Shown: positions 5,797 through 19,033 of the stretch, one piece after another
Layout: each line of letters opens with the position of its first letter
Numbering within the stretch: the stretch's first letter is position 1
Origin: Oscillospiraceae bacterium
GTDB taxonomy: Bacteria > Bacillota > Clostridia > Oscillospirales > Oscillospiraceae
DNA length: 64,000 nt
Assembly: GCA_017398725.1 (NCBI GenBank)
Contig: JAFQFA010000017.1
Span: 50,320 to 114,319 of the forward strand
Reading direction: 5' to 3'
Made by a program: the position numbers and the translations under genes
The notes under the pieces: model-generated
Databases searched by the model: none
What the model was told of the DNA's origin: nothing
Seen by the model: only the letters and a program-made list of their open reading frames with translations

Positions 5797-6762
5797 ATGA
5801 ACATCGTTGATTTGTTCCGGCTGCATTTTGGGACAAACACCCCCGCCACCAACGATTTTTCGTTAATTGAATATGGTTCCAGAATTCTTATCGGTGTGGA
5901 TAAAGCTTCTTATGTTTGTGTCGTTGTAAAATCTGCAAATCCTAACAGATTTCCATTAAAACATAAAACGCAGAACATGAGCATTGAATGCAATGTCAAA
6001 GTCCATTATAGTCTTCATGGCAATGCATTTAACGATGTGGTTCATATTATTCGTTGCTTGTCGGAAAAACAGCGGGAAAAAGAATTGTTTCTTGAACTTG
6101 CGGCCGTATTAATCCAAGAGAGCGATGGATCTGAAGAAGCAATTATGGATACCTTCAACACGCTTCGTACATTTTTTAACGACAAGAAGGAAGTTTCGGA
6201 CAACGAACTTATAGGTTTATACGCAGAATTGTACACAATCTGTCGATACGAAGCATGTATTGGGCTAGGCAAATATTGGCAGTCACGCGATCGCATGAAG
6301 TTTGACTTCTCAATTTCTGATAAAATCAAGCTTGAAGTTAAAGCAACAACCAAAAACTCTCGGACACATCACTTCCGTCATGAGCAATTGATGACCGAAC
6401 TATACGACATCTATGTTCTATCCTATATGCTTAGGTACGATGACGAAGGTCTTTCCCTATACGACGTCTTAATCGCAAGCAAGCGTATTCTCGAAGTTGA
6501 TTCGCGAAAACTTATTAAAATCAATTATATTCTCAAAAATGTGAGCGAAGATCGACTGAAAGGAATGCGATTCAACAAGGAGTTCACCGAATCCCATAGA
6601 CATTTTTATCAAGCTGCGGATATTCCCAAATTCAACCAAGTTGCTCCTATGGGTGTGGCTAATGCTGAATATGATTGTGTCCTAGACACCGTCTCGTATA
6701 TTGACGATCAGATGTTTATTGAAATTGTTGAATCCATAAAACGGGAGGTTCCCTATGTTTAA
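5797..6762 (+). CDS. PD-(D/E)XK nuclease-like protein, DUF4420 type
   Basis: 321 residues. The nuclease core is visible: GLYAEL with Glu144, a strand ending FDFS with Asp170, then LEVKATTK giving the E-x-K pair Glu180/Lys182, followed by a His/Arg-rich helix (RTHHFRHEQL). This matches the DUF4420 family found beside Z1 and MutL-like ATPases. It is the likely DNA-cleaving arm of the cluster. Strong AAGGAGG ribosome site. The 3' end overlaps the next small gene by 8 bp. Confidence 0.85.
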   Translation: MNIVDLFRLHFGTNTPATNDFSLIEYGSRILIGVDKASYVCVVVKSANPNRFPLKHKTQNMSIECNVKVHYSLHGNAFNDVVHIIRCLSEKQREKELFLELAAVLIQESDGSEEAIMDTFNTLRTFFNDKKEVSDNELIGLYAELYTICRYEACIGLGKYWQSRDRMKFDFSISDKIKLEVKATTKNSRTHHFRHEQLMTELYDIYVLSYMLRYDDEGLSLYDVLIASKRILEVDSRKLIKINYILKNVSEDRLKGMRFNKEFTESHRHFYQAADIPKFNQVAPMGVANAEYDCVLDTVSYIDDQMFIEIVESIKREVPYV

Positions 6763-7057
6763 AACGTACGACTTGTTCGATCACAGAAGTATTGACGATT
6801 TGGTTCCTGAGATCGTTTACTACTACCTATTTCAGGGATTGAGTCTAACGGCAATTGAGGAAAAACTCTTCAAAACAGATGCATATCACGGCTGGCTCAC
6901 CAAAGCTTTCTTAAACTATTATGGTATTGACACTGAAAAGGAAAATAAGGGTATTTACTTCAACAAGACTATGCCAGAAGTCGTTGACGTTTTGTATAAG
7001 AGTTCTAACATCGCACACGTCCGTGTTGCCAAGTTATTAAAGGAAAAGTATCTATAA
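6755..7057 (+). CDS. Small accessory protein of the Z1 cluster, unknown
   Basis: 100 residues, translationally coupled to the nuclease by an 8-bp overlap; GGGAGG lies inside the nuclease 3' end. The sequence is mostly helical, with IVYYYLFQGLSLTAIEEKLF resembling a small helical or winged-helix module, and a basic C-terminus. I do not recognise the family. Coupling suggests it works with the nuclease, for example as a specificity or inhibitor subunit, but this is inference only. Confidence 0.7.
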   Translation: MFKTYDLFDHRSIDDLVPEIVYYYLFQGLSLTAIEEKLFKTDAYHGWLTKAFLNYYGIDTEKENKGIYFNKTMPEVVDVLYKSSNIAHVRVAKLLKEKYL

Positions 7058-7089
7058 ATCTTATCTAAACGAAAAGAAAGGTGAGTTTC

Positions 7090-7395
7090 ATGGCAACACT
7101 CGAACAGTTATTTAATAACGATATGAAGAATATCTACATTACCGCCAAAAAGGACCTCGGCTATAACGCAACGCGATTCTTGCAACTTCTTTCCCAAAAG
7201 GGCGGTGTTGAAACAGCTCGTCAGCTTATTGCTAAAGACGGTGGAACTTATGGGTTTGAAGTGTTATGGGAGGCTGGTCGGCTAGATTTATCCGTAGAAG
7301 CACTTGTTCTAGATCCTAAATATCTTCCCCTTTTTAGTGAAGCAGAACACGAAATATGTCGAGAACGGCTATTGCTGCATGGGTATTCTAAATAA
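7090..7395 (+). CDS. Small helical protein at the end of the Z1 cluster
   Basis: 101 residues from the ATG; AAAGGTG six bases upstream decides this start over a GTG nine bases earlier. The helical sequence ends in LPLFSEAEHEICRERLLLHG, similar to a C-terminal tail that, as I recall, recurs in proteins near bacterial defence genes. No catalytic motif is visible. It is the last gene before a strong terminator, so it closes the operon. Function unknown. Confidence 0.75.
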   Translation: MATLEQLFNNDMKNIYITAKKDLGYNATRFLQLLSQKGGVETARQLIAKDGGTYGFEVLWEAGRLDLSVEALVLDPKYLPLFSEAEHEICRERLLLHGYSK

Positions 7396-7404
7396 TCTAT
7401 ATCA

Positions 7405-7444
7405 AAAAGAGGTTTCGTACAAAAGCATGTACGAAACCTCTTTT
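7405..7444 (+). terminator. Rho-independent terminator of the Z1 cluster
   Basis: AAAGAGGTTTCGTAC pairs with GTACGAAACCTCTTT around an 8-nt loop, followed by TTTT. The same stem core (GAGGTTTCG) is used by the terminator of the TOPRIM gene about 1 kb away. Confidence 0.9.
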
Positions 7445-7534
7445 AATTATTTCCTCGCATATCAATTCTGTCAGGCTGTGGATTTTTGCATTACCCCAAT
7501 AGAATTGAGAGTACCCACCGCATTGGGCAGATAA

Positions 7535-7708
7535 TTATTTTTCCTTTCTGACACCTTTAAATGGTGTGCCGTCTTGCTTGACATCCATAAAGCGACCAGT
7601 ATTCGAATCGCGCTTTACCCATTGCTCTGTTTTAGGATTATAAGTTTGAGCGCGCTGTCTAACTGCACCGTTTCTGTGGCCGTCACCTTTAGGGGGATTT
7701 GTAGCCAT
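7535..7708 (-). CDS. 57-residue conserved hypothetical protein
   Basis: Starts at ATG after AGGAGG and reads MATNPPKGDGHRNGAVRQRA before a Trp/Lys-rich centre and a GTPFKGVRKEK tail. Very basic, glycine-rich and probably unstructured. Sequences like this are, from memory, widespread as tiny hypothetical proteins beside phage-related or defence genes. Downstream of and co-directional with the ribbon-helix-helix gene (33 bp gap), so probably in the same transcript. Function unknown. Confidence 0.75.
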   Translation of the reverse strand: MATNPPKGDGHRNGAVRQRAQTYNPKTEQWVKRDSNTGRFMDVKQDGTPFKGVRKEK

Positions 7709-7741
7709 AACAATTACCTCCTACATGCTATTGACAATTAT

Positions 7742-8302
7742 TTAATAAGAAATACTTTTAATATGGTACGGAGCAAAACTAACTTTGCTTCGACCGTCCG
7801 TGTACGTAGCATCATTATAAGCGATTTGTAAATCGATCTTCTCCTCATTATCAGATCTAGAAACCAAAGCAGATGCTTTAATCGCCTGTGCAGGAATCTT
7901 AAAGAGGTGGATTTCTTTCTTCATCCAGTCATTCAAGATTAAGTACCAGTCCTGTTTTAATGCATCAAATAAAGGGTTGGCCCAATAATAGTTTCCCGCC
8001 TTATTTTTTGATGCAAACGTCACATTGTTATTAGTATAAATACCATCTCGCCGGAACAAATTTACTGCAGCACTTTTCGTAATGCGTCCATTTTCAACGC
8101 CCACAGGAACAGGTACCACCGGTTCGACCGGTGTCTGGACCTCAATCTTAGGTACATCCGCCACCAAGAAAGAAATGCTACCATCACGTACAACTCTTTT
8201 CAGCGCCATCTTTGTTACTACGCTTGCATCCAGACCGATTGTTTCAAGGATTTGTTCCGCCTCATGAAGTAACTGCTCGTCAACATAAATTGCATTTGCC
8301 AT
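7742..8302 (-). CDS. RelB/DinJ-like ribbon-helix-helix protein with unknown C-terminal domain
   Basis: 186 residues. Residues 1-48 look like a RelB/DinJ ribbon-helix-helix: a short strand, AEQILETIGLDASVVTKMAL and a VVRDGSISF tail. A Pro/Val-rich linker (about 52-68) leads to a roughly 115-residue domain containing NVTFASKNKAGNYYWANPLF and WYLILNDWMKKEIHLFKIPA that I cannot name. No toxin of RelE/YafQ type is adjacent; the only co-directional partner is the 57-residue gene. It could be an antitoxin fused to its effector or a DNA-binding single-protein system. Ribosome site GGAGAG precedes the ATG. Confidence 0.8.
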   Translation of the reverse strand: MANAIYVDEQLLHEAEQILETIGLDASVVTKMALKRVVRDGSISFLVADVPKIEVQTPVEPVVPVPVGVENGRITKSAAVNLFRRDGIYTNNNVTFASKNKAGNYYWANPLFDALKQDWYLILNDWMKKEIHLFKIPAQAIKASALVSRSDNEEKIDLQIAYNDATYTDGRSKVSFAPYHIKSISY

Positions 8303-8336
8303 GTAAATCTCTCCTTTGTTTTTTGTTTGTGCGTTA

Positions 8337-8365
8337 ACAATACCATAATCTTACCCGTTTGTCAA
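8337..8365 (-). promoter_or_regulatory. Promoter of the ribbon-helix-helix gene flanked by A/C repeats
   Basis: Reading on the minus strand, TTGACA, 17 bp, TATTGT. Copies of an ACAAACAAAAA-type repeat lie upstream of the -35 (about 8370-8394) and downstream of the -10 (about 8315-8333). That layout suits autoregulation by a ribbon-helix-helix protein. Confidence 0.6.
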
Positions 8366-8446
8366 TATGTTTTTATTTGTTTTTGTTTGTTTTTCTGGAC
8401 AAGCAAAAACATCATCCAACTTGGTAGTACAAACTGGTTCTAATGC

Positions 8447-8482
8447 AAAAGAGGTTTCGCACATTTGATGCGAAACCTCTTT
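8447..8482 (-). terminator. Terminator of the ATPase/TOPRIM operon
   Basis: Stem AAAGAGGTTTCGC with GCGAAACCTCTTT, loop of about 9 nt, directly after the TOPRIM stop codon on the minus strand and followed there by a T-run. Core sequence shared with the terminator of the Z1 cluster. Confidence 0.9.
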
Positions 8483-8483
8483 C

Positions 8484-9212
8484 TCAAATTTCAACAACTT
8501 CTTTAAAGCACTCTGCAAGCATAGATGATGTTTCCCAAGGTACTTGGCGAATTTGCTGATCAATAAAATCAAACACTTTTTGTGGGGACTGGATCGCCCA
8601 TGTAACACCTAAATAAGCTTTAGACACTAGACGCGGCTTACCGATATACCGCGCTGCTTCAGGAGCAATCTCGTCAACAAACGCTCTGCTTTTATCCACT
8701 ATGTTCTTATCATACGGATCTTCAGAAATTGCAGCAAGCATTAATGCCTCCAAGGCCCCCTGCTGGTTGTGGGGAATGACCTTCAAAAGAACAGATAGCT
8801 GCTTTTCCTCTGTATAACGGTTAACGTACCCTTGATCTACCCAAGCTCCATCTTTTATATTACCTGAAATTATTGGTAAGTCTGTACGAAAACTCTCTTC
8901 GATATCTGAGACCGTTTCGTCATCACGATCTACAATAATAGCAATTTTTGAAAAAGCATCGGCATCTACAAGAGGTCTTAGAATCTTTGTTTCAAAGAAC
9001 GCCTTAAATCGACTTTTTGATCCTACCGCACAAATGAGCAAGCGTTCGTCATCTCGCTTATACCAAGAAACAGCTTCTTGGGCTTTCTCGTCTGCTATAA
9101 TCCGTGCACCTTTTGGTGCAGCCTTAGTAAAGGTCCAACCACGAATCCTCTCCAAATAGTAACTTAACAGAATTGCGTCTGTCTTTCCTTCACATAGAAT
9201 CAATTTATTCAT
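8484..9212 (-). CDS. TOPRIM-domain nuclease-like protein (OLD/DUF3226-like)
   Basis: 242 residues. The TOPRIM signature is at the N-terminus: ILCEGKTDAILL with Glu8, then AIIVDRDDET with Asp95/Asp97 as the metal-binding DxD. The remainder is helical with no named domain. TOPRIM partners of OLD-type ATPases nick or cleave nucleic acid (Gabija GajA, PARIS AriB). Here the TOPRIM is a separate polypeptide whose start overlaps the ATPase stop by 4 bp (ATGA), implying a fixed subunit ratio. Predicted role: toxic or degradative effector of the operon. The closest named class is uncertain. Confidence 0.85.
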   Translation of the reverse strand: MNKLILCEGKTDAILLSYYLERIRGWTFTKAAPKGARIIADEKAQEAVSWYKRDDERLLICAVGSKSRFKAFFETKILRPLVDADAFSKIAIIVDRDDETVSDIEESFRTDLPIISGNIKDGAWVDQGYVNRYTEEKQLSVLLKVIPHNQQGALEALMLAAISEDPYDKNIVDKSRAFVDEIAPEAARYIGKPRLVSKAYLGVTWAIQSPQKVFDFIDQQIRQVPWETSSMLAECFKEVVEI

Positions 9213-10312
9213 ACGCGCACCTCAAAGCCAAAGGCTTCACGGTTTTCAAAAACCTCTCGACCGGTTAACGTGCGTGTATAGGTTCTATCCCAACCTTTTT
9301 TCATTGTCATAACAGAAACATAATCTTCGCTATTTGGTTCGCTATAATCTTGTGTAGCTAATATTGCATCAACAGCTTCAATATTATGTGTTGTAATAAA
9401 TAACTGCACATCATATCTGCTGCATGCTGTAACAAGGAATTGGAAGATATCGTTAAAATACTTTGCATGGATTGCTGTATCAATTTCATCAATTAGAAGC
9501 ACTCCACCAGCAGCAGAAACGATCGCGTTGGCAAGAAGCAAAACTTTCTTTATGCCATCGCCATATGTGGAAACAGGCATATTCCCCAACACGCTATGTC
9601 GAATATACTCTACAGGACGATTGGTTTGTTCATTTTTTAAAATGAGCAAGTCTTCAATATCTGGGTCAAACATGCGAATGACATGGAGGCAAATTTCCTT
9701 ATATCCATCGTTTCGCACAATGTTATTCAGCACATTGCTTTTGACGTGATCAATAGGAGATAAATACGTCATATCAATCAAAGATCCACGTACAACTTCT
9801 AGCCCATTAATCTTAGAATACTCATGGATACTAACCGGCTCATAGTAATATTCCCCGTCAACGCCCCATTTGATCTCTCCATTAAAGGCGGCAGCTTCAC
9901 CTTCATAATATTTACGCCCTGAAGGGAACGAAAAATGTCTGTAATCACGTTCATCGAGCAATACTCTGGTTTGTTCACCATACATGCGATAATCAACCGG
10001 TCTTCCGTGATAAATTGCGTGAATCTCTATGCCTCGTTCTGAGTACCCTTCCTTGTACTGTGGGAATAACGCAAGGAAGTTATCAAATACAGATACTCGG
10101 TTGTATGCGTATGCACTTTCTCTTTGACGAGCTACACGTAAAGCATTCACTACACTTGCAGGAGATCGCAGCATAAGTAACGCCTCAAGTAACGATGTCT
10201 TGCCGCAGTTATTGTCTCCAACAATCAGATTAACATGGTTTAAATATGAAGCATCAAACGATTTGATACCACGGAAGGAATCGATATAAAATTTTTCCAC
10301 ATGTATCGCCAT
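9209..10312 (-). CDS. AAA/ABC-type ATPase, OLD-like (partner of TOPRIM protein)
   Basis: 367 residues. Walker A is VGDNNCGKTSLLEAL (Lys38) after an FRGIKSFD strand typical of RecF/OLD/AAA_15-21 ATPases. STYGDGIKKVLLLANAI is the signature region, GGVLLIDEIDTAIH near 270 is Walker B, and FITTHNIEA is the H-loop. The coiled-coil insert is short, so this is a compact OLD/AriA-like ATPase. It overlaps the XRE gene by 1 bp (TAATG) and the TOPRIM gene by 4 bp. Predicted to sense phage or DNA structure and license the TOPRIM partner, as in split OLD systems. Confidence 0.85.
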   Translation of the reverse strand: MAIHVEKFYIDSFRGIKSFDASYLNHVNLIVGDNNCGKTSLLEALLMLRSPASVVNALRVARQRESAYAYNRVSVFDNFLALFPQYKEGYSERGIEIHAIYHGRPVDYRMYGEQTRVLLDERDYRHFSFPSGRKYYEGEAAAFNGEIKWGVDGEYYYEPVSIHEYSKINGLEVVRGSLIDMTYLSPIDHVKSNVLNNIVRNDGYKEICLHVIRMFDPDIEDLLILKNEQTNRPVEYIRHSVLGNMPVSTYGDGIKKVLLLANAIVSAAGGVLLIDEIDTAIHAKYFNDIFQFLVTACSRYDVQLFITTHNIEAVDAILATQDYSEPNSEDYVSVMTMKKGWDRTYTRTLTGREVFENREAFGFEVRV

Positions 10313-10617
10313 TACTCCTCCTCCTCTCCATTTGCAAAAGCAATCACAAGTCGCTTATTTAACCCGTCAGCAATTTTTTTGAGCGTCAAAATATTGGGCT
10401 TGCTATTTCCGGTTTCAAACTTACTAATGTTCGCCTGTGAAACCCCCGTAAGTTCCGCCAATTGTCCTTGCGTAATTCCTTGCTCATTTCTAGCTTCAAT
10501 TATCATCTCTGCAATTTCCGCGAAGATATCATAATCTTCTATCCGGTCGTCTTTGCTTTCTTTTGTTATCTCTACTTTTTTTAGTGCTTGCTGCAGATAT
10601 GCTTGAAACTCAGACAT
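10312..10617 (-). CDS. XRE-family regulator of the ATPase/TOPRIM operon
   Basis: 101 residues: an N-terminal helical tail of about 38 residues, then a Cro/C1 HTH (ARNEQGITQGQLAELTGVSQ, then NISKFETGNSKPNILTL) and a C-terminus rich in Glu. Excellent AGGAGGTG ribosome site. First gene of the operon; its stop codon overlaps the ATPase start. Likely autorepressor. The arrangement also resembles HigA-like antitoxins, so it might neutralise the ATPase/TOPRIM pair directly. Confidence 0.85.
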   Translation of the reverse strand: MSEFQAYLQQALKKVEITKESKDDRIEDYDIFAEIAEMIIEARNEQGITQGQLAELTGVSQANISKFETGNSKPNILTLKKIADGLNKRLVIAFANGEEEE

Positions 10618-10751: not shown

Positions 10752-11648
10752 TTACTTTTCCCTAAAAACAATCTCTGCATACAAGAAGTCGTGAATAACC
10801 ATCCTGACATGCATTGTTTCATCTTTTTCTATCCATGCAACGTATTTGTATTCGCCGTCTTGAACATCTGTCCAATTCATAACTACAAATTGTTGCTTAA
10901 TTTGATTGTCACCACGAAACTCCTGCAAAACCGCTTCCAGAACATAGAGTTTGTTGTACACTCTAGAACCAATGATTGGAAGTTTTTTATCCATCATGGG
11001 AATAAAGTAATCAAACGCATCTCTTTCTAGTTTAGGCATATCGAAAGCAAAGGTGTATTTTACACTTACCGGTGTAGCCTCCCATATATCTGTTGAATAT
11101 CCTTCACTTAACTCATACACACAGTGGCAAACTGCTAACTTTGTAAGCACTTTGCTTATTTTAATATTTGTAGGAAGCTCCTTACCATCGCAGTAAGCCA
11201 CGAAATCTCTTTGTGCATCCAAAAACGCCTTGTTTTTATAAATGCGTTCCTTGTTCTCATCATTGATTGCATTGCTTCGCCCAGAGATATATTTCATGGC
11301 ATCAATATACACTTCTGTATACAGTTCATCATCAGAAAAGCCATTATTGCATTTTTTACACGCAGGGAGAACCCGTAAATCTTCAGGATATGGCCTGCGA
11401 AGAAAAACTCTGGATGGAGCATGTTCCCTCGTATCAGACCGCCCACCGCAATAGATGCAAAAATGTGTACCTTTCCTCGTGAAGGAAACATGAGGTAGCA
11501 ATTCTGGTGGCCCCATATACTCTTTGAAACTAAATTCGCGCACAACATTGTTTTCGTCCATACCATTTCGCCCTGCTTTATCAAGAATTGAATCATTAAA
11601 CATTATATCTGCTGAGCAAATAGATTTCAATAGCCCGCTAAATTCCAT
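10752..11648 (-). CDS. HNH endonuclease-like protein
   Basis: 298 residues. A zinc-bound HNH fold is indicated by FCIYCGG, then TREHAPSRVF with the catalytic-type His, and PACKKCNNGFSDDE (C-x2-C, C-x2-CN) at about residues 64-110. The C-terminal half has no recognised domain and may recognise DNA. It follows the second C5 methyltransferase in the same direction, but a hairpin terminator and a 135-bp gap separate them, so it probably has its own promoter. It is the natural candidate for the restriction partner of that methyltransferase. The start is uncertain: no strong ribosome site is seen. Confidence 0.75.
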   Translation of the reverse strand: MEFSGLLKSICSADIMFNDSILDKAGRNGMDENNVVREFSFKEYMGPPELLPHVSFTRKGTHFCIYCGGRSDTREHAPSRVFLRRPYPEDLRVLPACKKCNNGFSDDELYTEVYIDAMKYISGRSNAINDENKERIYKNKAFLDAQRDFVAYCDGKELPTNIKISKVLTKLAVCHCVYELSEGYSTDIWEATPVSVKYTFAFDMPKLERDAFDYFIPMMDKKLPIIGSRVYNKLYVLEAVLQEFRGDNQIKQQFVVMNWTDVQDGEYKYVAWIEKDETMHVRMVIHDFLYAEIVFREK

Positions 11649-11718
11649 AGGATAAGAGATTCATTTTCAGTTCTTACAATTTATAATCCCCATATTAGAA
11701 CTGAGTGAGCATAAAGAA

Positions 11719-11749
11719 AGTACAGATTAGGAATAACCCAATCTGTACT
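11719..11749 (-). terminator. Terminator between the second methyltransferase and the HNH gene
   Basis: AGTACAGATT and AATCTGTACT form a perfect 10-bp stem with an 11-nt loop, followed on the minus strand by TTCTTT. A further dyad AGTTCT...AGAACT (about 11669-11703) lies around a TATAAA box before the HNH gene. Confidence 0.7.
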
Positions 11750-11783
11750 ATTTATTTCTAACGGCCTGCCCCTATTAGATTCT

Positions 11784-12830
11784 TTATTCAGCATGTTGTT
11801 CCAAGTACGCCTCATGTTGCGCTAAAATTTGCTCACCCACACGCTGTGCTAACAGAACAGGAACTGCGTTTCCAATCTGCTTTCCAATTTCTTGCAGCGT
11901 ACCCTCAAAAACATAATCATCGGGGAATGATTGCAATGTAGCAGCTTCCCGCAGGGAAATCGCACGATTCTGTTCTGGATGTCCAAATCTTCCGTTGGAA
12001 ATACTAAAACACTTCGATGTTAGTGTTGGAGAAACTTGGTTCCATGCCATTCGCCCATAAACATCCGTATGGCCTACATGACCATTGATATGGCACGCTA
12101 ATCGAAGCCTATCTGGCCAATCCGTACGGCTACCACCATCGTGCGGCGTTGCTTCGATACGTTGTGTATTCAGAGGGGATAGGTTTGCTGCACGATGATT
12201 TGCCACCTCTTCGTGTTCTTCTCCTGCTTCGAGCTGTGGATAATCATGTATTGCATCGTGAACAGTCACATAAGGAAGTAAGTCCCCACCGTGAGTCGCC
12301 TCTGGAAGCTCAGGAATAATCACTCTTGACGCTATCAGGATCAGTCTTTTTCGATTCTGGGGTACACCAAAGTCCTTGGCATTCAGCACATCGTAAACAT
12401 ATGCATAATGATTTTGTTGTAAAGTTGTAAGGAAGCGATTAAAAACCGCCTCTCCGCGTTTCTCAATTCCTGGAACATTTTCAACAAGTACATGCGCCGG
12501 TAGAATCTCCTCAACTAAGCGGCCAAATTCATCCAGCAAATTTACTGCTTCGTGTTCCTCGGTCGAATGCCGTTGGCTGCTGAAAGGTTGACAAGGTGCA
12601 CATCCTACAAGGAGCAACTCATCCGTGTCATTAAGAATCGGATACTCTTCTAGAAGTTGGACTCCTGTAACCTGTGTGATATCCCTATTGAGATATGGAA
12701 TACCATTATTATTCTGGTATGTATTTTGGCATGCGGGATTATAATCCAGTCCGAAAACAACGTTGATCCCAGCATCGATCAGACCCTTTGTCATTCCCCC
12801 GCCGCCGCAGAAAAAGTCAACTGCATTCAT
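11784..12830 (-). CDS. DNA (cytosine-5) methyltransferase, second copy
   Basis: 348 residues from the ATG that overlaps the receiver-gene stop (ATGA). An upstream TTG is possible, but the coupled ATG has AAAGGA nearby. Motif I is VDFFCGGGGMTKGL, motif IV is GCAPCQPFSSQ with catalytic Cys80, followed by VENVPGI, DFGVPQNRKRL, SLREAATLQSFPDDY and KQIGNAVPVLLA. The family is complete, with a compact target-recognition region. It is unrelated in detail to the first methyltransferase of the window. Being coupled to a receiver/kinase pair is the odd point: modification here appears to be under phosphorelay control or part of a signalling complex. Confidence 0.92.
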   Translation of the reverse strand: MNAVDFFCGGGGMTKGLIDAGINVVFGLDYNPACQNTYQNNNGIPYLNRDITQVTGVQLLEEYPILNDTDELLLVGCAPCQPFSSQRHSTEEHEAVNLLDEFGRLVEEILPAHVLVENVPGIEKRGEAVFNRFLTTLQQNHYAYVYDVLNAKDFGVPQNRKRLILIASRVIIPELPEATHGGDLLPYVTVHDAIHDYPQLEAGEEHEEVANHRAANLSPLNTQRIEATPHDGGSRTDWPDRLRLACHINGHVGHTDVYGRMAWNQVSPTLTSKCFSISNGRFGHPEQNRAISLREAATLQSFPDDYVFEGTLQEIGKQIGNAVPVLLAQRVGEQILAQHEAYLEQHAE

Positions 12831-13930
12831 TCTACCAAAATTCCTTTCGCCCAACTTTCCGTATCTCTATTTGGCATTCCTGGACGACATGAGTTGATCA
12901 TATGAGCCCATACGAGTTGTTCTCTAAACGGACTTGCTACCGATGCCACTCTATAATGCGAGTGGGCTTCCTTTGAGAAAGAATCAAAGGAAGGTGCGAT
13001 TTTACTATACAGGACAAACTCCAAATTCTTCAAATCTGCGGTCATATACGGGAGAACATTAGGAAGCTGAGGTAGTGCAACAAATGCCTTGTTATAGCCG
13101 TATTGCAACTCCTTAACAACTCGATCAACTTTCTCTTTTCCTTTTGCACTGGTTACGTTCTGTCCACTACTTAATCTTTGTTCTGTTACTTTTCCTTTGG
13201 CACAACAGTGGGCAACAAGAACCCTAAAATCCTCATCCCCATGATTTACCATATCGCAACTCGGAGTAAGTATGACACAGTACTCTTCAGGTAGGCCTGG
13301 TACTTGTTCTGCAGTATCGTCGCTATGAATCCGGATGACATCTGCAACCAACAAAGAATTGTTCATCGGAGGATATACATACTGAATCCATGCCGGAGGA
13401 GTGGTTCCTATCTCACATTGCTCAAAATACTGAATAGCTCGCCTGGACAGCATAAATGTAACAATTGATGCATCTGGAAATTCGTCCATCTTCGTAAAAG
13501 AATCTAATGTTCTTGAAGACTCTACCAATGCCTGATTCATAGAATGACGCAATCCCGAAATAGCTGTCGCTGCATCTTTCCATTCTTCAATTTTGACAAT
13601 AAGTTCGGAATCATCATCGCCCTTGCGAGTAAAATCAACATATGGATATCTCTTCTGCACATCTGCTAAAGTATCTTTTAGGTCATGTGCAGAGAACACT
13701 ATCACAGGGCGGAATTCTTTAGCCACAATCCGCTCAAGAATTGGTTTTCCTAAGTCGGCATCTTCTTCGTCATACATCCAGTCCATTACCACAACATCTG
13801 GATCAAATGTGTAAAGTAATGTTTCTGCACCCGCAAAGGAAGACACCTCTTTTTCCCAACCACGATCTTCAATTTCATTAATAAGCCCGTGAATTGTAGC
13901 CTCATTATCCTCAATCATTAGAACTTTCAC
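12827..13930 (-). CDS. Response-regulator receiver protein with unknown C-terminal domain
   Basis: 367 residues from a GTG start with GGAGG seven bases upstream. Residues 1-120 are a complete receiver: acidic pair Glu7/Asp8, phospho-acceptor Asp50 (VVVMDW), Ser80 and Lys103. The C-terminal 240 residues are not an HTH or a known output domain. They include YCVILTPSCDMVN and a conserved-looking tail with VASPFREQLVWAHM. I do not recognise this domain; the CD pair and SPFRE box may be functional. It overlaps the kinase gene by 20 bp and the methyltransferase by 4 bp. Probably phosphorylated by the upstream kinase. Confidence 0.85.
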   Translation of the reverse strand: MKVLMIEDNEATIHGLINEIEDRGWEKEVSSFAGAETLLYTFDPDVVVMDWMYDEEDADLGKPILERIVAKEFRPVIVFSAHDLKDTLADVQKRYPYVDFTRKGDDDSELIVKIEEWKDAATAISGLRHSMNQALVESSRTLDSFTKMDEFPDASIVTFMLSRRAIQYFEQCEIGTTPPAWIQYVYPPMNNSLLVADVIRIHSDDTAEQVPGLPEEYCVILTPSCDMVNHGDEDFRVLVAHCCAKGKVTEQRLSSGQNVTSAKGKEKVDRVVKELQYGYNKAFVALPQLPNVLPYMTADLKNLEFVLYSKIAPSFDSFSKEAHSHYRVASVASPFREQLVWAHMINSCRPGMPNRDTESWAKGILVE

Positions 13931-16079
13931 ATTCGGCCCTCCTCTTTATGGGAACATCAAATACAAATGTTGCTCCCTGTAAATTACCAGGGTATCTCAC
14001 ACCAGCTTTGCCATTGTACGCGCTAACAAGTTCTGTAACAATAACGAGACCCATACCAATACCCTTGGGTTTGCCTGTGATACCCGGTGTGAAAATCTTT
14101 TCAGCATTTTCTGGAGCAACGCCCGTGCCGGTATCACTCACAACAATAGTAATCCGTCCGTCATCTCGCAACTCTGTTTCGATAACAATTCGCTTATCTT
14201 GAACTTTCGCCTCTCTAATCCAATAACACGCATTGTCAAAGAAATTAATCAGAATTGTCTGAAGTTCACCTTCGCTCATTTGAACCACAATGTGTTTATC
14301 AACATTGCATACAAAGTCAACATCAGCACTCAGTTTTTTTGCTTTAATCAATCTCACGCTATTTTCAACACATTCATAAAGACTACATTGATTCTCCTTT
14401 TTTCGCAAATCTCGTCTATATAAAGGAGTGAAACTTTCAGTTACATCCAGCAACCGTTTATGGCTTCTGTGTGCATCTTCAAGATAGCTAACCGTTCTTT
14501 CGTCAAAAGATGTTTGATGCTTATCTGCTCTGTTTAAAAACCTCTTAATTGCCGTCATACCTGTCAGTAGTTCGTGCATAATGACACCAGCAACAGATCC
14601 CAAGGAGGCTGTTTGTCCATAATAAACCAACCGTTCATTCAACTTACGCAGCTGCACTTCATTCTTCTCATTATACGCATGCACCTGTTTTAGAATAGTT
14701 TCTGCAGACTTGCCTTGTTTAACTGCTTGCTCAATATCATCAACCAAATCTTGGGACGATAGCGGAGCGATAATATCGGACAATGTAGCCTTGGGGCTTT
14801 CATCAATTTTATCCTTTGTACGTTGGCTTTGCAATATATTAACAACGCCGTTAACAATACTGGTAAACTGTTTGTACTCAATGGTGTCTGCAAGTTTTTC
14901 TCTATCTGTTGTATCCTTAATACCAGGATTGTTGTCGTTTGAAATATTAATAATACCGACTATCTGACTCGTACTCAGTCTATCACCAACTCGGCTAATA
15001 CGCCTAGCGTCTAGTCCAAGCCAATCTTTTGAAGACTCTGATTTAGGGAGAACCAATACATTGTCTCGATAGACCGATAATCCTTTGTATTGTGCTATAT
15101 TAGCTCGAATGGCTCGCTTATCAATTTGAAAACGACCTCTTAAAGCCTCAGTACTTACTGAATCCAAATCCCATGCTCTAATTTCAAAAGAAAACGGACC
15201 ACATGTAAATATTTCATTTGCAAGGATACCATGATTTTCGTAGTCCCATAAAAAGCATCCCTTTTCTTGACGCTTTTTTTCCCCATTATCATGGTAATAT
15301 ATCCAAGAAACCGAGCCCTCACCATCTACCGATCCAACAACTTTATATAGGGGCTGGTTAATAAACTCGTTTGGTTTAATCTCAACTGCATCAACGCTAT
15401 ACTTCGATTTAACCGCAATAGCAAAATCGTTAACCTTTTCAAAAGGATTAATCAATCGTGCTAACTCTGTCATAAGAGTTTCAATTGATTCCTGAGTCCA
15501 TTCAGTTCTAAGCTTTTTGATAATAATCGTTGTTCCTGTTTTATTGCTGTTTCCTTCATACGGATTATTATCCACATAAGACAGCGATATTGCGCAATCG
15601 CTTACAGATGCTGCCTGTTCAAAGGAACGCCAATCGAAAAAGGCATTAATACATTTGTCGTCCTTGTGCTTGGTTATAATGTGCATTTCGTGACCCAGTC
15701 TTGCTGCAGAGAATCTGCCCAATCCCTTATTGCCAGATACAGCACGTGAACGAAGTTCTTTTTTTGTATTTCCTTTATCATCCTTAAGTTCAAACTCACG
15801 AGAAATATATGGCTGATTCTTTTTGTAAGATGTCGCAATTGTTGCCCAAGCATTCTCAATGGTTTCCTGCGTCATTCCACAACCATCATCAGCAATACTA
15901 ATATAGGGCTCCCCCTGCTCATCTACGCCAAAATCAATGTATACTTTCAAAGCAAAAGCATCATAGCAATTCTTAACGAGCTCAATCATTGCCACATTTT
16001 CGTTTGTTATAAGGTCCTCACCAAATGCAGAAAATGCACGGGGATGTATTTTAATTGGTATAGCGATAGGTTTTAACAT
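13911..16079 (-). CDS. Double-GHKL sensor kinase (HSP90-like N-terminus plus histidine-kinase C-terminus)
   Basis: 722 residues from the ATG with GGAG at correct spacing; an ATG 6 bp upstream has none. The N-terminal ATPase shows MIELVKNCYDA (Asn37), ADDGCGM (64-69) and GNKGLGRF (116-123), as in HSP90/paraMORC proteins, then an S5-like region to about 390. A coiled coil leads to an H-box VIMHELLTGMTAI with His502 and a second ATPase: FFDNACYW (Asn616), DTGTGV (649) and GIGMGLVIV. There is no transmembrane segment, so it is cytosolic. It heads an operon with a receiver protein and a C5 methyltransferase. Having two ATPase modules suggests that DNA or complex remodelling drives phosphorylation. 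Confidence 0.9.
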   Translation of the reverse strand: MLKPIAIPIKIHPRAFSAFGEDLITNENVAMIELVKNCYDAFALKVYIDFGVDEQGEPYISIADDGCGMTQETIENAWATIATSYKKNQPYISREFELKDDKGNTKKELRSRAVSGNKGLGRFSAARLGHEMHIITKHKDDKCINAFFDWRSFEQAASVSDCAISLSYVDNNPYEGNSNKTGTTIIIKKLRTEWTQESIETLMTELARLINPFEKVNDFAIAVKSKYSVDAVEIKPNEFINQPLYKVVGSVDGEGSVSWIYYHDNGEKKRQEKGCFLWDYENHGILANEIFTCGPFSFEIRAWDLDSVSTEALRGRFQIDKRAIRANIAQYKGLSVYRDNVLVLPKSESSKDWLGLDARRISRVGDRLSTSQIVGIINISNDNNPGIKDTTDREKLADTIEYKQFTSIVNGVVNILQSQRTKDKIDESPKATLSDIIAPLSSQDLVDDIEQAVKQGKSAETILKQVHAYNEKNEVQLRKLNERLVYYGQTASLGSVAGVIMHELLTGMTAIKRFLNRADKHQTSFDERTVSYLEDAHRSHKRLLDVTESFTPLYRRDLRKKENQCSLYECVENSVRLIKAKKLSADVDFVCNVDKHIVVQMSEGELQTILINFFDNACYWIREAKVQDKRIVIETELRDDGRITIVVSDTGTGVAPENAEKIFTPGITGKPKGIGMGLVIVTELVSAYNGKAGVRYPGNLQGATFVFDVPIKRRAECESSND

Positions 16080-16118
16080 AGCCATTCTCCTTTTAACATT
16101 TTTTAGCGAGGAATTAAT

Positions 16119-17760: not shown

Positions 17761-18069
17761 TCAATTATTCAATTCTTGTGACAGATATAGACCAAGTTTG
17801 ATTCCATCAATAAAGCCGGTCTGCTGGTGGCCGCGGCAGAGACAGCAAACGGCATATATCACCTCATCTTTCTCTCGTAATGTTTTGCCATTCATGGCTT
17901 CATACAGGTCTTCAAACGCTCGCTTGATCTCCTCTGTGTCGCTATTGCAGTTCTGATCGTAATAAGCGCCGCAAAGGAAACCCAGCACGCTATCAGCATC
18001 ATCGCCAAAACTCGGTTGTGTGGCAGTAAGTTTTGACTTTAATGTATGTACAAAATCATTCAGTCTCAT
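17761..18069 (-). CDS. DUF6809-like small protein
   Basis: 102 residues; the ATG overlaps the end of the Fic gene by 14 bp, implying coupling. The helical protein ends FIDGIKLGLYLSQELNN, the FxDGFxLG-type tail typical of the DUF6809 family of Clostridia mobile elements. No enzyme motif. Possibly a partner or antitoxin-like companion of the Fic protein, judged only from the overlap. Confidence 0.7.
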   Translation of the reverse strand: MRLNDFVHTLKSKLTATQPSFGDDADSVLGFLCGAYYDQNCNSDTEEIKRAFEDLYEAMNGKTLREKDEVIYAVCCLCRGHQQTGFIDGIKLGLYLSQELNN

Positions 18070-19033
18070 TATCGAATCCCTCCTCAACAATTTCTTCGTC
18101 CTCGCTATCGCCATACTTTCTAAACTTGGACATAGGCAGTTCTCTAAGTGATTGCAGCTTCAACTGTCGTTCAAACCGTTCCTGAGCATCGGCAACCACC
18201 TGCATCAGTGTGAAGCGGTAGGTGCCCCATTCCGCAAGACCAGCAAGGTATTGGCTTCGGCGCTTATCGTCGATGATAAAGGGCGTGACACCGTTACGGA
18301 CACATTCCTTAAACATGATCAATCGACCGATCCGTCCATTTCCATCTTCAAAAGGAACAATCTGCTCAAACTGAACATGGAAATCAAGAATCTCCGGCAG
18401 ACCTTTCTTTCTTCTGCCTTCATATGACTGAACAAGTTTCTTCAGCATACTACCGATCTTTTCAGCCGGTGGCATTGGCCGGTCACGTCTAACTGTGCCT
18501 ACTTGACGATACACTCCAGGCGTGACCCGTTGCTTTCTGTGATCCACCGTTCCAAACATTAACCAGTAGTGGAGCTCTATGATCATCTGATGGGATAACG
18601 GTTCGTTCACATGGTCAATGATATAATCAATGCATACACAGTGGTTCATCGCTTCTACCATATCTGATACTTTTGTTTGTTCGAACAACTCACGAATCTT
18701 ACCCTTTCTAAAAATATCTTCAACTTGGTTTCGGGTAAGACGATTACTGGCCAAGCGAGATGAGGAATACGTGAAATTGATTTGTATGTAGTCATATAGA
18801 CCGTGATTGTTCTTTTTCGTTTTTTGTCCAATCAACTTCTTGGACAGTGGAGAGATCGTTTTTGCGGGTTGCTTGCTCACCATTGGTTTTGGTTTTTTTG
18901 CGTGTTCCGGAATTAACCAAGCTCCGTTTTGATACTTGGCTCCGGGGATGCGTTTTTGTCGGCAATATTTACGGGCAATAACATCAGAGACACCCCACTT
19001 GTTTGCCGCCTCTTTTGCGGATATGTAATCCAT
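18056..19033 (-). CDS. Fic-family protein with N-terminal HTH and altered active-site motif
   Basis: 325 residues. Residues 1-50 are an excisionase-type HTH (ISAKEAANKWGVSDVIARKY, WLIPEHAKKP). The Fic domain follows with Fic_N-like helices and the core VPFEDGNGRIGRLI near residue 230. The Fic consensus is HPFx[D/E]GNGRxxR; the codon here is GTT, so the catalytic His is Val while the anion-binding loop is intact. Fic enzymes normally AMPylate proteins. Without the His this one may be inactive, use another chemistry (as phosphocholinating or kinase-like Fic/Doc do) or act mainly as a DNA-binding protein. Confidence 0.85.
   Translation of the reverse strand: MDYISAKEAANKWGVSDVIARKYCRQKRIPGAKYQNGAWLIPEHAKKPKPMVSKQPAKTISPLSKKLIGQKTKKNNHGLYDYIQINFTYSSSRLASNRLTRNQVEDIFRKGKIRELFEQTKVSDMVEAMNHCVCIDYIIDHVNEPLSHQMIIELHYWLMFGTVDHRKQRVTPGVYRQVGTVRRDRPMPPAEKIGSMLKKLVQSYEGRRKKGLPEILDFHVQFEQIVPFEDGNGRIGRLIMFKECVRNGVTPFIIDDKRRSQYLAGLAEWGTYRFTLMQVVADAQERFERQLKLQSLRELPMSKFRKYGDSEDEEIVEEGFDNETE

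Follow-up and report, generated by a model that had tools for sequence, protein, structure and literature searches.

A GHKL histidine kinase, a receiver with a TPxCD output domain and a cytosine-C5 methyltransferase as a candidate modification-linked defence cassette

We analysed a 64,000-nucleotide stretch of an Oscillospiraceae bacterium genome (assembly GCA_017398725.1, contig JAFQFA010000017.1, positions 50,320 to 114,319), hereafter the window, in which genes for a double-GHKL sensor histidine kinase, a phospho-receiver protein and a DNA cytosine-C5 methyltransferase lie in a row. The same trio recurs in distant bacteria and is probably a little-studied anti-phage system. That it would work as a three-gene modification-linked defence cassette is a reading we hold at close to even chances. 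The kinase architecture, the adjacent receiver and the linkage to C5 methyltransferases were already described by Bellieny-Rabelo, Pretorius and Moleleki in 2021 (PMC8011034; statements on this and the other papers cited refer to the portions of their text available to us), so a remark in an earlier note on this DNA, made from its letters alone, that no named system has this set is superseded.

All four genes of the locus, the trio and an HNH-like open reading frame (ORF) behind it, are on the minus strand. The kinase (13911..16079, 722 aa) starts at ATG 16079 behind an AAGGAG ribosome-binding-like sequence, with a second in-frame ATG at 16085, and its end overlaps by 20 bp the GTG start of the receiver (12827..13930, 367 aa), which has AGGAGG upstream. 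The receiver in turn overlaps the methyltransferase (11784..12830, 348 aa) by 4 bp at an ATGA, taking ATG 12830 as the start (TTG 12854 also fits). The earlier note had reported both overlaps, and the coordinates confirm them. Its description of the three proteins also stood. The kinase has two GHKL modules, a MutL/MORC-like N-terminal HATPase_c_3 (15609..15998, Pfam 1.5e-19) and a C-terminal catalytic HATPase_c domain (13944..14270, 3.5e-19), and kinase alignments place the predicted phospho-acceptor His502 in between (codon 14574..14576; residue 504 from the upstream ATG). The receiver has the full Glu7/Asp8, Asp50, Ser80 and Lys103 set. The methyltransferase matched Pfam DNA_methylase (2e-55) and TIGR00675 (2.6e-45) and carries FCGGG, PCQ, ENV, QNRKR and GNAV in that order, which we take to be the C5 methyltransferase motifs.

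A kinase alignment, used to scan the genomes of bacteria and archaea, gave 558 confirmed relatives, of which we analysed the best 80 loci. Record titles placed these in many phyla, including planctomycetes, Chloroflexi, Acidobacteria, Bacteroidetes, Streptomyces relatives, spirochaetes and archaeal assemblies; many are from metagenome bins, so single taxon assignments may be wrong. A long ORF lay directly behind the kinase in 76/80 loci, starting no more than 30 bp past the kinase stop in 72 of these, and 65/80 loci had a receiver with the C-terminal domain of the window receiver. C5 methyltransferases were found within 7 kb in 55/65 loci with this domain compared to 3/11 without it, and in 44/49 versus 2/7 when only loci with at least 3 kb on both sides were counted. 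After merging kinases at ≥50% identity (single linkage, 45 clusters), the enzyme was present in 30/37. The 11 domain-less loci comprised six short receivers, two loci cut by contig ends (L062, L072) and three of uncertain status (L043, L067, L085); four loci at contig ends without a downstream gene (L051, L053, L079, L086) belong to neither group. Ten domain loci had no C5 enzyme: three carried an N4/N6 methyltransferase gene (L073, L084, L108), three were at contig ends (L041, L057, L064), and in the remaining four (L054, L093, L102, L106) we found no such enzyme. Chance co-location was rejected. The 148 genomes of the window's class contained approximately 67 (merged pieces) to 93 (all rows) C5 methyltransferase genes, which, assuming that genomes average 2.4 Mb, puts a C5 gene in 0.3–0.4% of 16-kb windows; this background is that of the window's own class and may differ in other groups, and the 55/65 loci with which it is compared are related by descent.

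The association extended to other samples. Within the window's class, 7/8 kinase-bearing genomes, the window included, had a nearby C5 methyltransferase, and the receiver C-terminal domain was found in 5/391 genomes, all five among those eight. Viral contigs yielded 46 loci with 44 full-length kinases, 25 of them with the receiver domain; C5 methyltransferases accompanied 22/25 of these and 10/19 without the domain (one of the 19 without a downstream gene). Two Campylobacter plasmid records and one Fusobacterium record had the full set with the methyltransferase convergent, while an Enterobacter plasmid had kinase and receiver with no C5 enzyme nearby. The finding that would have counted against the earlier note, that kinase and receiver homologues mostly occur without the methyltransferase, was thus not obtained, and its link between phosphorelay genes and DNA modification is upheld. 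Separately, contigs L131 and L132, both assigned to viruses, had a vsr-kinase-receiver-dcm arrangement belonging to the subfamily of the window (36% identity); upstream in L131, an ORF judged by eye to be terminase-like was seen. On a different branch, the short receivers of L009, L083 and L098 lacked the C-terminal domain; an MBL-fold hydrolase came next, and no C5 methyltransferase was nearby.

The METHYLTRANSFERASE of the cassette is its exchangeable component. We compared trees for 62 loci with all three genes and the C5 enzyme within 5 kb, including the plasmid and window loci. Distances between kinases and receivers were strongly correlated (0.80), in contrast to those between kinase and methyltransferase (0.19; P 0.005 with 199 permutations) and between receiver and methyltransferase (0.14; P 0.01). 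The methyltransferase gene was upstream on the same strand in 36 loci, downstream and convergent in 12, downstream on the same strand in 9, and upstream on the opposite strand in 5; the window's order and strand therefore occurred in 9/62 triplets, and the enzyme was elsewhere within 5 kb in 53/62. Parsimony on the kinase tree required 17 layout changes, compared to a mean of 24 and a minimum of 20 for shuffled layouts. Within the window clade, 7/9 other members had the window's layout and two had the enzyme upstream.

The chemistry of the modification partner varied as well. An N6_N4_Mtase gene was directly upstream in the three loci with N4/N6 enzymes noted above. In plasmid loci L012 and L013, kinase and receiver adjoined DUF4007 and PAPS-reductase genes, genes of the sort that phosphorothioation-based Ssp and type-4 BREX systems employ (PMC12839542); both loci have a long, divergent receiver, whose C-terminal domain call came from an iterated profile. 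At L012 (6458-15782 of an A. baumannii plasmid record), the kinase and a 646-aa receiver are convergent with a PAPS reductase, a large ATPase and DUF4007, and the kinase may be the histidine kinase reported beside a nuclease-less Ssp (PMC12421847). Taken as a whole, these results suggest that kinase and receiver form a module that partners with DNA-modification systems.

An ordinary two-component regulator that stands beside a solitary methyltransferase, or regulates it transcriptionally, would amount to epigenetic control and not defence. Many C5 methyltransferases are solitary, and the translational coupling in the window is what such a regulator would predict. The enzyme is on the opposite strand in 17/62 triplets, so co-transcription is not the constraint. 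The window's surroundings are a defence island according to defence-model matches, and N4/N6 and sulfur-modification genes can replace the C5 methyltransferase. We consider this explanation unlikely.

The kinase retained the features of both its halves across the family. Its nearest relatives shared 49% (L031), 41% (G338) and 34–39% identity (L032-L037 and L090). A profile built from the N-terminal halves of 16 kinases matched MutL (1.7e-6), HtpG/Hsp90 (8.2e-6) and MORC3 (8e-4) in the PDB; residues 17-227 of the window kinase also matched the NCBIfam BbrUII/HgiDII restriction enzyme model (4e-19), and the PADLOC type II restriction enzyme model matched the N-terminal region in 22/25 aligned kinases. 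The phospho-His was kept in 94/96 aligned kinases and was invariant in a smaller alignment (25/25). It is followed by Glu in the window kinase (HE at 502-503) and by Glu or Asp in 92/96. Both Asn of the N box were kept in 95/96 and the N-terminal D64-G66-G68 motif in 96/96. E33/N37 and K118/G121 were invariant across the 96, a conservation that is partly built in, as the scan pattern contained E33, N37, K118 and their neighbours. In the C-terminal ATPase, N612, N616, D649-G653 and G673-L678 were kept in kinase alignment A4. L028 and L029 had no aligned His, and the receivers of both were without the family C-terminal domain. Hydrophobicity indicated a soluble window kinase, with a highest 19-residue Kyte-Doolittle mean of 1.37 by a crude membrane test in which 3/25 relatives exceeded 1.6. 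Two relatives were built differently: in L030 (G223) each half of the kinase has an ORF to itself, with a receiver that carries the C-terminal domain behind them, and in L106, a Cenarchaeum assembly where the domain sits on a 923-aa ORF adjoining the kinase and no methyltransferase was found, a second ORF (6314-8554) has kinase-like N-terminal residues.

The receiver consists of a phospho-receiver (REC) domain in its first 112 residues (13595..13930) and an undescribed C-terminal domain, the predicted output, with the pattern TPxCD ... LP ... RxGxP (12830..13459; alignment of 37 receivers). Pfam Response_reg matched REC at 3.3e-4, below the family cut-off, and the receiver family profile matched PDB response regulators at 1.6e-10. 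Among the 37 aligned receivers, the window's included, D8 and D50 were invariant, position 80 was Thr or Ser in all, and position 103 was Lys in 33 and Arg in 4. P223, C225 and G351 of the C-terminal domain were likewise present in 37/37, and its Cys and Gly were invariant across 41 diverse members. Judged by sequence comparison, the TPxCD...RxG domain shared by the receivers appears to be undescribed: in a Pfam search with the C-terminal half of 41 members no family was matched by more than one member (best E 0.02), and a PDB profile search with the domain gave no supported match. The protein thus has the REC residues of a canonical response regulator and matched no known DNA-binding or enzymatic output domain in Pfam or the PDB. 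A MazF/PemK-like fold for the domain was rejected as unsupported at a profile-comparison probability of 1.3%, which is weak evidence since the PemK alignment was shallow (Neff 1.6). Because the domain profile was refined by iteration on these very loci, the E-values obtained there are not independent; a 34-member profile had picked out 54/93 downstream genes in the initial round, and the assignments in L011-L014 rest on iteration, with a CD motif found by pattern as well in L011, L012 and L013.

From these features we infer a defence role with the following cue, phosphotransfer and effector activity. The methyltransferase would mark the cell's own DNA. The kinase is predicted to join a MutL/MORC-type GHKL clamp, its N-terminal half and input, to a soluble histidine-kinase core. 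It probably reads a DNA-bound cue, either DNA that is foreign or unmodified or a mark that has been damaged, and would then autophosphorylate His502. Transfer of the phosphoryl group from His502 to Asp50 of the dedicated receiver would be the switch, and phosphorylation of Asp50 would turn on the TPxCD domain as the output, which most likely either is an effector or triggers one; where other loci have a separate nuclease nearby, the domain may control that enzyme. A broader possibility, which we offer tentatively, is that the MORC-like clamp kinase and TPxCD receiver act as an exchangeable 'restriction arm' of 5-methylcytosine, N4/N6 and phosphorothioation systems, telling self from non-self by phosphorelay in place of a sequence-specific endonuclease. 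Such an arm would explain modification loci without a cognate nuclease. If this is true, bacteria police DNA modification by two-component signalling, and there is an unrecognised partner for some methyltransferases that look solitary and for some modification loci without a nuclease. With its invariant Cys and Gly, the C-terminal domain of the receiver is a defined target for the effector question.

Several observations weigh against the defence cassette and the exchange within it. The methyltransferase does track the kinase slightly, as none of the 199 permutations reached the correlation of 0.19. Domain-less loci from genomes and viral contigs still had a C5 methyltransferase in 13/30 cases; the C5 link is not exclusive to the C-terminal domain, and the case for an exclusive one is weakened. 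The domain itself is without a known fold or catalytic signature. We found no phage, methylation or phosphotransfer assay of the pair in the literature searched, the scope of which excluded subscription papers and preprints. Recognised restriction nucleases (EcoRII-C, MvaI_BcnI, HpaII, AspBHI/Mrr, McrB-like and a Rhizobium type II enzyme) stand beside several relatives, so the receiver need not be the effector there.

These nucleases raise an alternative that we consider doubtful, in which the pair serves ordinary restriction-modification as an accessory switch, controlling the methyltransferase or a separate locus-specific nuclease, and is not an effector. We scanned 109 of 161 selected neighbouring proteins, the rest, mostly short ORFs and the list tail, having been dropped by hand. 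Among the 25 of 79 families listed were HhH-GPD (7 neighbours), HATPase_c_3 (3), EcoRII-C (2), MvaI_BcnI (2), HNH_2 (2) and HpaII (1). Ten hand-picked neighbours included three HhH-GPD, one each of HNH_2, NOV_C, AspBHI/Mrr_cat, McrB-like (MrcB_N) and MORC-like proteins, and two unmatched; in the Rhizobium locus, an annotated type II enzyme and an EcoRII N-terminal protein adjoin the pair. The window's HNH-like gene could be a partner of this kind, and the authors of PMC8011034 speculated on a direct or indirect control of restriction-modification by the pair. No nuclease family in that list occurred in more than 2/109 neighbours, L037 and L090 had no evident nuclease by eye, and the scanned receivers had no known DNA-binding domain in Pfam. 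The neighbour counts indicate that the flank is a variable slot, often occupied by nucleases or base-excision enzymes, and the HNH-like gene of the window may be one such occupant.

The base-excision enzymes and Vsr also suggest methyl-cytosine repair, where the MutL-like clamp with Vsr or HhH-GPD would handle T:G mismatches from deaminated 5-methylcytosine and the phosphorelay would serve as a damage alarm. Vsr, sought with a profile built from three loci, was within 7 kb in 36/80 loci, including 35 of the 55 that had both receiver domain and C5 enzyme. The frequency of HhH-GPD among the scanned and hand-picked neighbours and the closeness of the N-terminal kinase profile to MutL point the same way. 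Against this, no Vsr was found within 7 kb in the window or in 20/55 of the domain and C5 loci, and pairing with phosphorothioation-type genes has no deamination logic. We regard repair as quite improbable.

The earlier note had placed the HNH-like ORF (10752..11648) next in line and asked whether four families recur together. Kinase, receiver and methyltransferase do, and the HNH gene is not conserved with them. Its product has an EHAP stretch flanked by CIYC and CKKC, HNH-like by eye, and searches of Pfam, PADLOC and NCBIfam at E 0.1 gave no match. A comparison with the 6109 ORFs in 98 loci recovered the ORF itself and nothing else, with no relative in the 97 other loci, in 290 other genomes, in phages or, by exact short patterns, in viral contigs. 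Ten plasmid relatives were found, and the two examined adjoin DUF6602/TIR and PIN/helicase genes. The HNH protein was therefore rejected as a core gene and may be a locus-specific partner. A four-gene system with this protein as its dedicated nuclease is very improbable. The ORF is on the same strand and starts 135 bp past the methyltransferase stop, HNH_2 was the commonest endonuclease domain near the receivers of PMC8011034 and was present in two of our 109 neighbours, and HNH genes accompany some paraMORC operons (PMC2292703), which would all suit such a system. The HNH-like protein does not match HNH_2, it has the distribution just described, and it lies behind a hairpin. That terminator-like hairpin (11719..11749, minus strand), which the earlier note had seen before the HNH gene, has 13 pairs and a T-rich tail and lies 3' of the methyltransferase; such sites are common by chance in this stretch, with 5 found versus 3.8 expected, and this one had the longest stem.

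Elsewhere in the defence island, an XRE regulator, an AAA ATPase and a TOPRIM protein (8484-10617, minus strand) adjoin the cassette. The ATPase and TOPRIM protein matched PADLOC candidates PDC-M38A (5e-115) and PDC-M38B (8e-89), an independent candidate defence system. A Fic protein (18056-19033, minus strand) matched PADLOC candidate PDC-S04 (3e-70), and a 186-aa ORF (7742-8302, minus strand) has a RelB/DinJ-like N-terminus.

Among known systems, the window was closest to the HEF_HK/Response_reg_2 two-component system of PMC8011034. That study linked 91.6% of 644 receiver regions to a GHKL kinase, found restriction-modification domains over-represented among the neighbours, with C5 methyltransferases prominent, Vsr and HNH_2 nearby and N6/N4 methyltransferases in the neighbour network, and put forward the idea of a two-component system connected with restriction-modification. 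The window shares the soluble HATPase_c_3 – DHp with His – HATPase_c kinase (their group 1), the adjacent receiver with a D-D, D, T, K set, and, as a family, the C5 methyltransferase, Vsr and HNH_2 neighbours. It differs in receiver length (367 aa versus 600 aa for their query), and we did not meet the C-terminal output domain, a tree comparison or phosphorothioation-type partners in the portions of that paper available to us. HEF_HK (PF19191) had no match at E 0.1 in the kinases of the window, L031, L039 and L097. Response_reg_2 (PF19192) scored 18.1 bits against the window receiver, below its cut-off of 27, and matched in none of 249 genomes, 20 genomes and 14 controls, which left no reference member for comparison; the context of that family, an adjacent GHKL kinase and a nearby C5 methyltransferase, is present. 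Since the window fits the 2021 architecture and not its Pfam models, we filed it as a predicted divergent branch of that kinase-receiver kind and not as a HEF_HK/Response_reg_2 member. Elsewhere in the literature searched, as far as the available text goes, these names or accessions appeared only in a biosynthetic-cluster paper.

The paraMORC/MORC GHKL proteins of restriction-modification loci (Iyer, Abhiman and Aravind 2008, PMC2292703) have the same GHKL and S5-like N-terminal half and the same methyltransferase, Vsr and HNH neighbours. They differ in that no histidine-kinase core was described in the text available, where the words 'receiver' and 'two-component' are absent from the main text. 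VcSduA, a Shedu protein whose phage defence was shown by its authors, likewise has a GHKL clamp at its N-terminus, with a proposed role in gating a defence effector; its effector nuclease is fused in the one protein, with no phosphorelay or methyltransferase described in the portions available (PMC12137116). Our receiver domain matched the N-terminal part of the PADLOC SduA (Shedu) model at 4.8e-8, and some Shedu proteins may have a receiver-like N-terminus.

The Detocs effector depletes nucleotides. Detocs shares two-component signalling in phage defence with the window cassette and differs in having three signalling proteins (DtcA kinase, DtcB buffer, DtcC response regulator), with no GHKL clamp or methyltransferase named in the available text (PMC11728103). 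Neither kinase nor receiver had a Detocs-named match in PADLOC-DB 2.0.0, where the presence of Detocs models was unchecked. Of the PADLOC PDC-M60 models, PDC-M60B matched 3/37 receivers (best 1e-5) and PDC-M60C 2/37 (best 8e-5), but neither matched the window receiver, and 25 kinases had no PDC-M60 match at 1e-5. The Ssp without a cognate nuclease in Acinetobacter baumannii (PMC12421847) is comparable through L012 of the same species, whose family kinase and receiver stand beside DUF4007 and PAPS reductase; that locus differs from the window in its sulfur modification in place of cytosine methylation and in its longer, more divergent receiver. As a type II restriction-modification system, the window has the DNA methyltransferase, and its only nuclease candidate is the non-conserved HNH-like neighbour. 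The discovery of the trio belongs to the published work; what is new here is the output domain that the receivers have in common and the finding that modification chemistry can be exchanged beside the kinase and receiver.

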